Shown piece by piece: positions 7,801-13,818 of a stretch of 64,000 bases of DNA. The translations under genes were made by a program, and so were the position numbers. Location: NCBI GenBank assembly GCA_947490345.1, contig CANLGL010000011.1:1-64000 (forward strand), in the 5' to 3' direction. The notes beneath the pieces are model-generated. The model searched no databases and was not told the origin of the DNA. It saw nothing but the letters and a program-made list of their open reading frames with translations. Positions within the stretch are counted from its first letter, which is position 1; each line of letters begins with the position of its first letter. Origin of the DNA: Deltaproteobacteria bacterium. Its GTDB lineage: Bacteria > Myxococcota_A > UBA796 > SXON01.

Positions 7801-9402
7801 CTATTCGGAGCAGTTGCCGTACAGCGCGTACTGCACTTCGATCGTCGACCCGCCCGCCGGGATGTGGTCGTCGTCGAAGTTGACCGAGTTGTCGACCGAG
7901 TCGTAGCTCCAGCCGCTGGTCTGCACCACGCCGTCCACCGTCACCACGATGGTGGTGGGAACGGGGAAGTCGCTGAGCTCGAAGCTGGACAGATCAAGCG
8001 TAGAGCTGTCGACCAGCGCCTTGAGGTGGCTGGCCCAGTCGGTGGCGCACACCGAGAGGTAAAGACCGCCGGTGGCGACGCTCAACTCGTAGACGTTGTT
8101 GGTCGCCGACGCCGAACCGCAGCCCGACGGCCAGTCGCCGGAGATGGCGTGGGCGATGAACATGTCGCTGTCGGACTTGATGCTCTGCGCGTAGGCCAGG
8201 TAGTTGGCCCAGGTGTCGGGGCTGGAGTCGGGCTCGTCCGACACGTAGATGTACGCCAAGAACGCGTCGTCCCGGAGGAAGTCGCTACCGGGGCCGGAGT
8301 CGCCGCCGGACTGGCCGGACTGATACGACATCTCGGTCGGCATCTCGTTACCGGACCCGAGGGTCCCGGCGACGGCCTGGGTGGTGAACTCGTCGACCAG
8401 GTTTGCGGTGGTCTCATCCATCATGTCGCCCCGGAAGTCGGGGTTGTCGGTGGTGATGACTGCCATCTGGAAGTCGACGTCGAGGGTCTCCAGCTCCTCG
8501 GCGAAGGCCGTGAAGTTGCTGGAGAGGTTGGACTGCTCCTCGGCCATCGAGCAGGAGTTGTCGACGATGAACAGGATGTCCGTGGCGCTCTTCAGGGCCT
8601 GCGCGAAGATGTCGAGGTTCTCGCCGTACAGCTCGCCCGCGGCGGTCTGGTGGGCGTAGGCTTCGGGCTGGGCAGGGTCGTCGGAGGAGACCACGACGGT
8701 ACCCTCGTCAGGGAAGTCGTCGAGCGGCGCGTACTTGATGTAGACCTCCTTGCTCTCCCCAGGGGCGATGGTCCACGGAAGCGCGCCGTTGACGGCCGCG
8801 TTCTCATCAACGTCAAGGTCGTTGCTGGCGGTGATGTACTCGAAGCCGGTGACCTGCAGATCGGCATTGCCGACGTTCCCGACGGTGATCGGCTGGGGGG
8901 ACTCGCAGCCGATGTAGATGGTGCCGAAGTCATATTCCGAAGGTGTGACCTCGATCTTCGGGGCGATGCCCTGGCCGAGGATCTTGACCTCGGTGGTGGC
9001 CTCGTCGGGGTCGTTGCTGTCCACCAGGACCTTGGTGTTGTACTCGAGCGCGGTGATCGGCGCGAAGGTCACGGTGAACGTGGTCTGGCCGCCCGGAGGA
9101 ACCAGAACCGAGCCAAGCGCGCTGATCTCGTACGGCATGGACTCGTCGGCGAGGCGCACATCATTGATGTTCAACGACGCGCCGGTCTCCGTGTCGCTGA
9201 CGTTGTAGATCGTCACGACTTCGGAGACGGGGATGCCGTCGCCAACCGATACATCGCCGAAGTCAATCTTCAGAGGATCGACCTCAATATCCGGCACGCC
9301 GTCTTCGACGTCTGCATCGTTGACCTTGCCACCGGCGGAGATTTCGTACTCAGAACAGCCGATCGCGGCGAGGGACAGCAGAAGCGAGGGGTAGAAACGC
9401 AT
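7801..9402 (-). CDS. Lipoprotein with two ASH-type domains and a von Willebrand A domain
   Basis: A 533-residue lipoprotein (signal MRFYPSLLLSLAAIGC, lipobox AIGC). Two consecutive ASH/choice-of-anchor-D immunoglobulin-like domains follow: IEVDPLKIDFGDVSVGD about 39-150, and IEVTPSEYDFGTIYIG about 150-245. They share the DFGxVxVG start and the TFAP/KYAP and SSNDP/SSDDP elements. Residues about 270-490 are a VWA domain with the MIDAS sequence DNSCSM (D-x-S-x-S form). No enzymatic motif is seen. The combination suggests a surface adhesin or scaffold whose VWA binds a partner through a metal ion. A GGAG lies just before the start codon. The 99 bases between it and metG hold no gene. Confidence 0.85.
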   Translation of the reverse strand: MRFYPSLLLSLAAIGCSEYEISAGGKVNDADVEDGVPDIEVDPLKIDFGDVSVGDGIPVSEVVTIYNVSDTETGASLNINDVRLADESMPYEISALGSVLVPPGGQTTFTVTFAPITALEYNTKVLVDSNDPDEATTEVKILGQGIAPKIEVTPSEYDFGTIYIGCESPQPITVGNVGNADLQVTGFEYITASNDLDVDENAAVNGALPWTIAPGESKEVYIKYAPLDDFPDEGTVVVSSDDPAQPEAYAHQTAAGELYGENLDIFAQALKSATDILFIVDNSCSMAEEQSNLSSNFTAFAEELETLDVDFQMAVITTDNPDFRGDMMDETTANLVDEFTTQAVAGTLGSGNEMPTEMSYQSGQSGGDSGPGSDFLRDDAFLAYIYVSDEPDSSPDTWANYLAYAQSIKSDSDMFIAHAISGDWPSGCGSASATNNVYELSVATGGLYLSVCATDWASHLKALVDSSTLDLSSFELSDFPVPTTIVVTVDGVVQTSGWSYDSVDNSVNFDDDHIPAGGSTIEVQYALYGNCSE

Positions 9403-12524: not shown

Positions 12525-13424
12525 TCAGCCCACGCGGACGTTGCACACGGCGCAGCGTCCCTGGTCGCCCCGGTAGGTCACCGCCTTCGCCCGCTGACAT
12601 CCAGCGTGGAAGACCTTGCCGCATCCGTACGCGCACGGGTGCTTGACGTCGACCGCGACGGGCTGCCCGCAGATGGCGCAGTCCGCCAGGGTCTCTTGGA
12701 CGGCCTGCTTTTCTACCTGTTGCACCACCCGCGGCGGGAGGGCCTCGACCGCCCCCCACCAGGCCAACCACCCCAAGAACACCCCGCCCACCCCAAGGAC
12801 GAAGCCCGGCACCGCCCGCGCATAAACCTCCAGGAACTCGGCGTCGTTCACGATCACCGGGGTGAGAAACGCGATCGCCGTGATCATCACCACCAAAAAC
12901 AGCCCGGTCGCGGCGATGCGGACCCGGTTGGCTCGTCCACCCCAAGCATGTCGCGACAACGAGGCGCAGAGGAGGCCCAACGCGAGGCCTGGCACGGTGG
13001 TGATGAGCCAATCCAGGCTCACCGTCAGCGCCACCCCCCACAGGATCGCCCAGCCCATGACCCCAGCGAAAGCGCCGAAAAGGGATAGCCAGCCGGCGCC
13101 TGCGTAATCGTGGGTCTCTGGGTAGTCGGGCGGCTGCTCCACCACGCCGCTGCCATGGGGAGGCTCAGGGAGCAGGTAGACCAGCTCCCCGTTGATCACG
13201 CCGAGCTCGTCCAGGCGCTCACCCTCTTGCAAGAGGCGGCCGCGCGCGCGCAGGTAGTAGTTGCGCCGTTTCCCGTCGGGCCAATGGGCCTCCAGGCCGG
13301 CATCCCTGGCGATGCGCTGGGTGAGGTCCCGCGCTGGAAGGTAGGTGGGGACCTGCAGATCGAGGGTGAAGCTCTTCAGATCGATGACCTGCACGCGAAG
13401 GGCGACGACGGTGCTGGGCTCCAA
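12525..13424 (-). CDS. Ubiquitin-like/four-TM/C4HC3 zinc-finger membrane protein
   Basis: A 299-residue protein from a TTG start at 13424, chosen because GGAGG lies 8 bases upstream on the minus strand, spanning the stop region of the gp25 gene. Residues about 9-86 form a compact ubiquitin/YukD-like domain (RVQVIDLKSFTLDLQVP at the front, ELGVINGELVYLL at the end, like the beta-grasp finish DGDxLxLL). Four hydrophobic helices lie at about 112-135, 136-155, 168-190 and 203-224. The C-terminus is a binuclear zinc finger: C249-x2-C252-x11-C264-x3-C268-x4-H273-x2-C276-x14-C291-x2-C294, the spacing of PHD/RING-variant treble clefs. RING-like domains give E3 activity in eukaryotes and occur in some bacterial Ubl systems. 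Function here is unknown. A GTG at 13394 is an alternative start. Confidence 0.75.
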   Translation of the reverse strand: MEPSTVVALRVQVIDLKSFTLDLQVPTYLPARDLTQRIARDAGLEAHWPDGKRRNYYLRARGRLLQEGERLDELGVINGELVYLLPEPPHGSGVVEQPPDYPETHDYAGAGWLSLFGAFAGVMGWAILWGVALTVSLDWLITTVPGLALGLLCASLSRHAWGGRANRVRIAATGLFLVVMITAIAFLTPVIVNDAEFLEVYARAVPGFVLGVGGVFLGWLAWWGAVEALPPRVVQQVEKQAVQETLADCAICGQPVAVDVKHPCAYGCGKVFHAGCQRAKAVTYRGDQGRCAVCNVRVG

Positions 13425-13428
13425 GGGA

Positions 13429-13818
13429 CTAGCCTCCGAACGCGAGCGCCAAGCTCTGCACCGCGTCGGTGGCGCGCACCTTGTACTCGACCTCGACCCG
13501 GATACTCCCGGCCTGGTCAGGCTCGGCTTCCACCCGTACAACCTCGATTCGCGGCTCCCAACGAGTGAGGGCCTCGCGGACGTGGTGGGCGACGACCGCG
13601 CTGGTGTTTCGGGTGTTCGGGGCGAACATCAACTCGTGGATGCGGCAGCCGAACGCCGGCGACATCTGTCGCTCACCCGGGCGAGTACCAAGAATGATGG
13701 TGATGTTCTGCCGTATGTTCTCTTCGAACTCCGACCAGCCGACGCCGCCGGTCGCGGAGTCGAAACCGAAGGGGAAGGCCCAACCGCGGCCCAGGACCTC
13801 TCGCGGATCGTCACGCAT
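13429..13818 (-). CDS. gp25/GPW-family baseplate wedge protein
   Basis: A 129-residue protein from ATG 13818 (MRDDPREVLGRGW). GWAFPFGFD, EENIRQNITIILGTRPGERQ, and FGCRIHELMFAPN are the classic gp25-like (IraD/GPW_gp25) signature found in phage T4 gp25, TssE of type VI secretion and baseplates of extracellular contractile injection systems. The EENI...L.T..GER block and F-G-x-x-L/I-H-E are conserved; the basic 'RxP..GFG' end differs a little. The protein nucleates sheath assembly on the baseplate. No sheath, tube or spike genes lie in this window, so the gene is isolated here. The ubiquitin-like/zinc-finger gene follows within 4 bases and is translationally coupled. Confidence 0.85.
   Translation of the reverse strand: MRDDPREVLGRGWAFPFGFDSATGGVGWSEFEENIRQNITIILGTRPGERQMSPAFGCRIHELMFAPNTRNTSAVVAHHVREALTRWEPRIEVVRVEAEPDQAGSIRVEVEYKVRATDAVQSLALAFGG

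Follow-up and report, generated by a model that had tools for sequence, protein, structure and literature searches.

The window, that is, the whole stretch of 64,000 nucleotides that was analysed, encodes a 299-residue protein that joins an N-terminal ubiquitin-like (Ubl) domain, four predicted transmembrane (TM) helices and a C-terminal RING-like zinc finger. In most of the order to which the genome belongs, its gene stands last in an operon for a contractile injection system (CIS). We lean toward the interpretation that this Ubl-4TM-RING protein is an inner-membrane docking adaptor of the CIS, which probably arose by fusion of a Ubl with a four-span RING-like protein and loss of the matching E1-like and E2-like enzymes. 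In sister lineages these parts are the products of separate genes and have look-alikes of ubiquitin-attaching enzymes for neighbours, so the protein is likely a stripped-down ubiquitin-type system that has been reused to tie the machine to the membrane. What appears to be new is a CIS variant with a new kind of membrane module; the machine itself is not of a new kind.

Domain architecture of the Ubl-4TM-RING protein

The gene lies on the reverse strand at 12525..13424, with a TTG start at 13424, and was defined by the ORF call, profiles, an alignment and a structural model. The open reading frames, gene order, coordinates and 299-aa length agreed with the initial annotation. The protein search returned 427 homologues at E<=1e-3, a number that argues against a chance architecture. 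The alignment contains 39 rows, namely the window protein, 13 rows from the loci and 25 of the 427 homologues (taken among the 120 matches listed). The whole protein is covered by no Pfam, NCBIfam or PADLOC family.

The ubiquitin/YukD beta-grasp domain occupies residues 7-89 (13158..13406, reverse strand). Pfam YukD matched residues 11-84 with 29.3 bits (cut-off 27), and the Ubl domain is the best-conserved part of the protein, with a mean column identity of 0.84 over residues 7-95. It is N-terminal and runs on into the TM region, so that it has no free C-terminus for conjugation. The AlphaFold2 model built from the 39-row alignment (mean pLDDT 81.9, pTM 0.49) has a beta-grasp domain N-terminally and a hairpin followed by a helix C-terminally; the pTM value leaves the placement of the domains open. 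Foldseek searches with this model matched ubiquitin-fold proteins and chains of ESX complexes.

Four TM helices are predicted between residues 112 and 222 (12759..13091, reverse strand) by both the model and hydropathy, and the modelled helices span residues 112-135, 139-160, 167-193 and 197-222. The loop between helices 2 and 3 is positively charged and the loop between helices 3 and 4 is negatively charged. Together with the four spans, these charges indicate that both ends should face the cytoplasm, and an N-in/C-in topology is predicted. Because the residues flanking helices 1 and 4 carry a net negative charge on average, this topology rests on the loops.

The C-terminal finger (residues 245-297; 12534..12692, reverse strand) carries the ligands C249, C252, C264, C268, H273, C276, C291 and C294 in RING/PHD order, and all eight are invariant in 39 of the 39 aligned rows. 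Matches of RING/PHD models to residues 234-295 were all below cut-off. A separate alignment of the RING-like finger took in 34 of 56 finger fragments, with the row of L024 shifted at one ligand column. The C4HC3 arrangement is one toward which prokaryotic RINGs tend, according to the part of PMC11354881 that was available. The ubiquitin/YukD-like fold, the four predicted membrane helices and the C4HC3 RING-like finger, all three of which the initial annotation had proposed, are supported, the RING fold of the finger being a prediction.

The CIS operon and its distribution

Upstream of the Ubl-4TM-RING start, across a gap of 4 nt that follows the gp25 stop codon (13425..13428, reverse strand), is the gene for a 129-aa gp25-type CIS baseplate wedge protein (13429..13818, reverse strand; PF04965, 99 bits), the sole PF04965 match in the window's genome. 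The initial annotation had labelled this gene gp25/TssE-like; the gp25 part of the label stood, and the TssE part did not, as the protein scored 37.3 bits against TIGR03357, under the cut-off of 53.2. A type VI secretion system (T6SS) identity was rejected on this score and on the absence of TssM (PF06761) from the window's genome.

The two genes had also been taken as a coupled pair. The adjacency is real in the window, but gp25 is one of seven syntenic genes and no special partner. Across the order the operon runs CIS tube/LysM, hub, gp25, baseplate J, Tail_P2_I and a conserved ~310-aa protein, with the Ubl-4TM-RING gene last in most of the order. The survey of relatives that had been suggested found gp25 alone directly paired with the Ubl-4TM-RING gene in 5 of the 11 genomes of the window's genus and the longer CIS operon in most of the order; outside the genus, the distance from gp25 to the Ubl-4TM-RING gene in these operons is ~6 kb, with gp25 upstream. 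Since the CIS operon is found in most of the order and is scattered in the window's genome, the gp25-only pairing is a genus-level remnant of a larger CIS operon.

Among 57 named loci, the nearest upstream CIS gene was the ~310-aa gene in 41 and gp25 in 6. Measured from the ends of profile matches, the distance was no more than about 300 nt in 36 of the former and 4 of the latter. No upstream CIS gene was found in 8 loci despite at least 5 kb being available, and 2 loci had less than 5 kb upstream. The titles of 56 of these records begin with MAG and the remaining one is a bin; several of the contigs are short. As a separate matter, six MAG records that hold contigs of this order (L061, L062, L063, L101, L104 and L068) have titles that look wrong, five naming Klebsiella pneumoniae and one Bifidobacterium breve.

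In the window's genome, contig 11 holds gp25 and the Ubl-4TM-RING gene, contig 13 holds baseplate J, Tail_P2_I and the ~310-aa gene, and contig 48 holds the genes for Pvc16_N protein, sheath, gp19 tube, tube/LysM and hub. An assembly break is unlikely, since none of the pieces is at a contig end and since other genomes of the genus (L005, L007) repeat the pairing with gp25, flanked by the same genes. The genes of an eCIS-type set (sheath, tube, hub, gp25, baseplate J, Tail_P2_I) are all present in this genome. The link to a contractile machine, as first proposed, is supported by the operon context in the order and by the sheath, tube, hub and Pvc16_N genes elsewhere in the genome. Within the genus (the three contigs above and genomes G001-G010) the CIS operon is splitting into pieces, and the manner of splitting varies between species. 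Two neighbouring open frames in the CIS cluster of contig 48 (L036:1694-3493 and L036:3992-5308) both match the sheath family PF04984. Elsewhere in the window, positions 7801-9402 of the reverse strand encode a 533-aa protein with HYDIN/ASH-type Ig-like domains (Pfam PF22544, PF15780).

The Ubl-4TM-RING protein occurs in 36 of the 38 genomes of the genus, family and order, the window's genome included, and is single copy in 35 of the 36 carriers, G012 having an extra short fragment. Of 282 genomes drawn from the phylum, 49 belong to the order, and 44 of these had the protein; the 233 others gave one weak match. In the 49 order genomes, 43 had both the protein and the orthologous baseplate J, 1 the protein only, 1 baseplate J only and 4 neither, a co-occurrence with a one-sided Fisher p of 1.2e-4, uncorrected for kinship. 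A baseplate J match was present in 131 genomes of the phylum, and the 77 of these outside the class had no Ubl-4TM-RING protein. Absence calls here rest on draft genomes, and the window's own genome is a draft that is 92% complete.

The exceptions were inspected individually. G021 (79% complete) has the protein, with baseplate J and sheath undetected. G008 has baseplate J without the protein, and its ~310-aa gene runs to the contig end. Three of the genomes with neither (G079, G089 and G169) keep a sheath gene with baseplate J at best distant, and therefore appear to hold another CIS type, or phage. The fourth, G026, is 80% complete with sheath genes present, and may merely be incomplete. Genomes that lack this CIS type thus mostly lack the Ubl-4TM-RING protein too.

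A split-gene cassette in sister families

In f7 and f8, which are other families of the same class, the CIS operon has the same genes as far as the ~310-aa gene. Four further genes then follow, whose products are, with sizes as in f7, a ThiF/E1 (~450 aa), a four-TM protein with a cysteine-rich C-terminal finger (~228 aa), a standalone Ubl (~97 aa) and an E2 of the UBC fold. The split cassette is present in seven genomes, in four of which it is linked to the CIS operon (L123, L127, L128 and L129); E1, E2 and the YukD-type Ubl are adjacent in these four and in L155. The last locus belongs to G153 (f7, 90% complete; contig 22, L155:12224-15479), which has the full cassette of E1, 4TM-RING, Ubl and E2, with baseplate J and sheath undetected; in this genome the CIS may have been lost, or the cassette may function by itself. 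CIS linkage cannot be judged for G258 and G263, whose cassettes lie on short contigs.

The cassette enzymes resemble those of ubiquitin systems. Pfam ThiF matched cassette E1s with 141 and 134 bits, and the nearest PDB entry to the E1 was eukaryotic Uba1 (E=1.4e-24), with ThiF at 1.3e-15. UQ_con matched cassette E2s with 29.7, 30.8 and 32.2 bits (cut-off 27) and a fourth with 24.0, below the cut-off; the HPN motif and the cysteine are kept in 4 of 4 aligned E2s, whose profile was nearest to E2-25K in the PDB (5.4e-8). YukD matched one standalone Ubl with 29.4 bits and a second with 23.3, below cut-off. A relationship between the four-TM parts of the f7 protein and of the window family is detectable (E 0.0014-0.065 in three proteins), and six f7 proteins scored 19-38 bits against the full-length profile of the window family. 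For the split 4TM-RING protein 59 homologues were found, with no Pfam domain listed for any of them, and its alignment was made from 22 of the 59 database matches and five locus rows.

The f7 parts depart from the canonical pattern at two points. The second ligand position of the f7 finger is not a cysteine, so this finger may bind less zinc. The C-terminus of the f7 Ubl is HIPA in 6 of 6 sequences instead of two glycines, which makes conjugation in f7 hypothetical. We also noted that, whereas the standalone Ubl ends in HIPA, the E1 C-termini are EVMGG (L127:8088-9461 and L129:7564-8940), EVMGGGDG (L128:8197-9537) and EVIRGG (L155:12224-13633).

E2 genes of the PF00179 type are rare in the order of the window. 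PF00179, the one E2 family searched, had no match at E<=0.01 in the window's draft genome (G000) or in 61 of the 63 order genomes. Matches at this threshold were found in 2 of 63 order genomes versus 7 of 8 other genomes of the class, and matches over the curated cut-off in 1 order genome and 3 other class genomes. The two order genomes are G020 and G024, the latter with a weak match (E=0.003). E1-profile matches in the order are partial, mostly to profile residues ~83-231, and none is better than 9.7e-21 except that of G020 (3.1e-60). G020, which also holds the fused protein, carries on contig 156 (L154:7937-13749) a separate operon of Ubl, E1 (with one internal TAG), JAB, Prok-RING_1 and E2, and the 20 kb examined there showed no CIS gene.

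The direction of change was approached with a tree of 29 chosen baseplate J rows, rooted at the midpoint. All 17 of the 17 fused-type rows fell in one clade (100/100), the f7 split form was sister to it and the f8 split form came next, and eight CIS without the module formed the other side. This branching supports, short of proof, an order in which the split form came first and the fusion later. The very long f8 branch makes both the placement of f8 and the order of events unsure.

Proposed role and relation to known systems

Two further observations bear on the proposed inner-membrane adaptor. Among the products of the seven genes of the L019 operon, the Ubl-4TM-RING protein is the only one with TM segments predicted from hydropathy (sheath, gp19 tube and Pvc16_N were outside this check), and the T6SS component TssM (PF06761) is missing from 37 of 38 genomes, the window's genome among them. 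In the proposed mechanism both end domains would face the cytoplasm and the four helices would hold the protein in the inner membrane. The conserved Ubl domain would contact the baseplate on the cytoplasmic side, with the adjacent ~310-aa protein, Tail_P2_I or gp25 as the most likely partner, and the RING-like finger would be a second protein-binding or oligomerising face, not a ligase. When the parts were still separate, E1 and E2 would have attached the Ubl, in a regulated manner, to the machine or to the membrane protein of the machine, and the Ubl-4TM-RING fusion would then make the Ubl link permanent. A more specific version, which we put forward only tentatively, is that E1, E2 and the membrane RING of the sister-lineage CIS operon attach the Ubl to the baseplate or to its membrane receptor and so license docking and firing, the window lineage having hard-wired this signal by the Ubl-RING fusion and discarded the enzymes.

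The initial annotation had offered two roles, an anchor or regulator of a contractile machine at the membrane, or E3-like marking of proteins. The former is the reading that survived best. Its regulatory half, in which the protein would be no structural anchor but a membrane regulator or sensor that responds to stress by setting off CIS firing or cell death, is a minority possibility that still carries some weight. CisA of Streptomyces is a precedent, and the gene is unlinked from the CIS in some genomes, as a regulator might be. On the other hand, no sensory or enzymatic domain was found in the protein with Pfam and NCBIfam, and the gene follows baseplate genes in the operon. It is rather unlikely that the protein is a cellular membrane protein with a role of its own and a secondary link to the CIS. 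G021, G153 and the CIS-unlinked loci would fit such a role, but synteny with CIS genes is conserved, and the protein is present together with orthologous baseplate J in 43 and absent together with it in 4 of the 49 order genomes.

The E3-like idea fared differently for the present and for the past. An active membrane RING-type E3 ligase that attaches a ubiquitin-like modifier to proteins of the CIS or of the cell would agree with the eight-ligand finger and with the E1, E2 and Ubl of the sister-family cassette. In the window's own genome, however, we regard this as improbable, because no E2 of the PF00179 type was found there, as in 61 of 63 order genomes, and the Ubl is N-terminal without a free end; the E1-profile matches of the order are also partial, except in G020. 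As an account of ancestry the idea gained ground, since the sister families have E1, 4TM-RING, Ubl and E2 at the same operon position. Least probable of all, given its retention across the order as a single copy in 35 of 36 carriers in synteny with baseplate genes, its four predicted TM helices and the full enzyme set of the sister cassette, is a CIS cargo that acts in eukaryotic prey through its eukaryote-like Ubl and RING-like folds, although eCIS do deliver effectors.

If the docking-adaptor reading is true, a ubiquitin-conjugation cassette with an E1 near Uba1 was wired into a phage-tail machine and decayed into one structural protein. Little is known of how CIS that are neither T6SS nor released attach to the cell membrane; the cases named in the available part of PMC12237407 are Streptomyces CisA and the cyanobacterial baseplate extension. 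The Ubl-4TM-RING protein is a sequence-defined candidate for such attachment in an order that goes under record titles such as Deltaproteobacteria and Myxococcota, and the split form offers a natural comparison. The available text of PMC11937823 reports that in seamount water the gp19 tube gene was the top-expressed gene of two Myxococcota MAGs, and that the uncultivated class UBA796 accounts for most of the MAGs in which it was expressed. Neither ubiquitin nor YukD is mentioned in the main texts of PMC12210884 and PMC11937823, as far as these were available. In the open-licence literature searched, which does not include Burroughs 2011, no paper was found that joins a CIS with YukD, or with a ubiquitin-like protein together with an E3 ligase or E2 enzyme.

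Four known systems bear comparison. The first is prokaryotic conjugation operons; Burroughs 2011 reportedly describes E1-E2-RING-Ubl(-JAB) operons and would be the likeliest prior account of bacterial operons with E1, E2, RING and YukD. Both the sister-family cassette, in which E1, E2 and Ubl accompany a RING-like protein, and the separate G020 operon with JAB and Prok-RING_1 are like these. The cassette differs in that it is embedded in a CIS baseplate operon (four loci) and that its RING-like protein has four predicted TM helices and, in the order of the window, is fused to the Ubl. A ubiquitin-like conjugation cascade is also known from archaea (PMC5654768, in the part available).

The second is YukD/EsaB with its membrane-fused form, EccD. 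As in that form, the 299-aa protein begins with a YukD-type Ubl and continues into several membrane spans, and both are associated with secretion machines. EccD of ESX we take to be the actinobacterial protein in which YukD is fused to ~12 TM helices. ESX-3 and ESX-5 chains were among the Foldseek matches of the model, with a large overall rmsd of 14-21. In contrast with EccD, the 299-aa protein has four predicted TM helices instead of ~12 and a RING-like C-terminus, and its gene goes with a contractile, not a type VII, machine. The fusion of a YukD domain to ~12 TM helices in actinobacteria is described in the available part of PMC1779556.

CisA, in the available part of PMC12237407, is a membrane protein needed for the firing of the Streptomyces CIS, with one TM helix, a disordered N-terminus and a periplasmic, C-terminal solute-binding-like domain. 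CisA and, by prediction, the 299-aa protein have in common a place in the membrane and an association with CIS genes, and the proposed role of CisA is to recruit the machine to the membrane. Whereas the 299-aa protein has four predicted TM helices and a C-terminal zinc finger, neither a Ubl nor a zinc finger is described for CisA in that part of the text. The adaptor role suggested here would parallel that proposed for CisA, by unrelated means.

The machine itself resembles eCIS of the Afp/PVC type, with sheath, gp19 tube, Pvc16_N, CIS_tube/LysM, GPD hub, gp25, baseplate J and Tail_P2_I. It differs from them in the addition of a predicted membrane protein with Ubl and RING-like domains.
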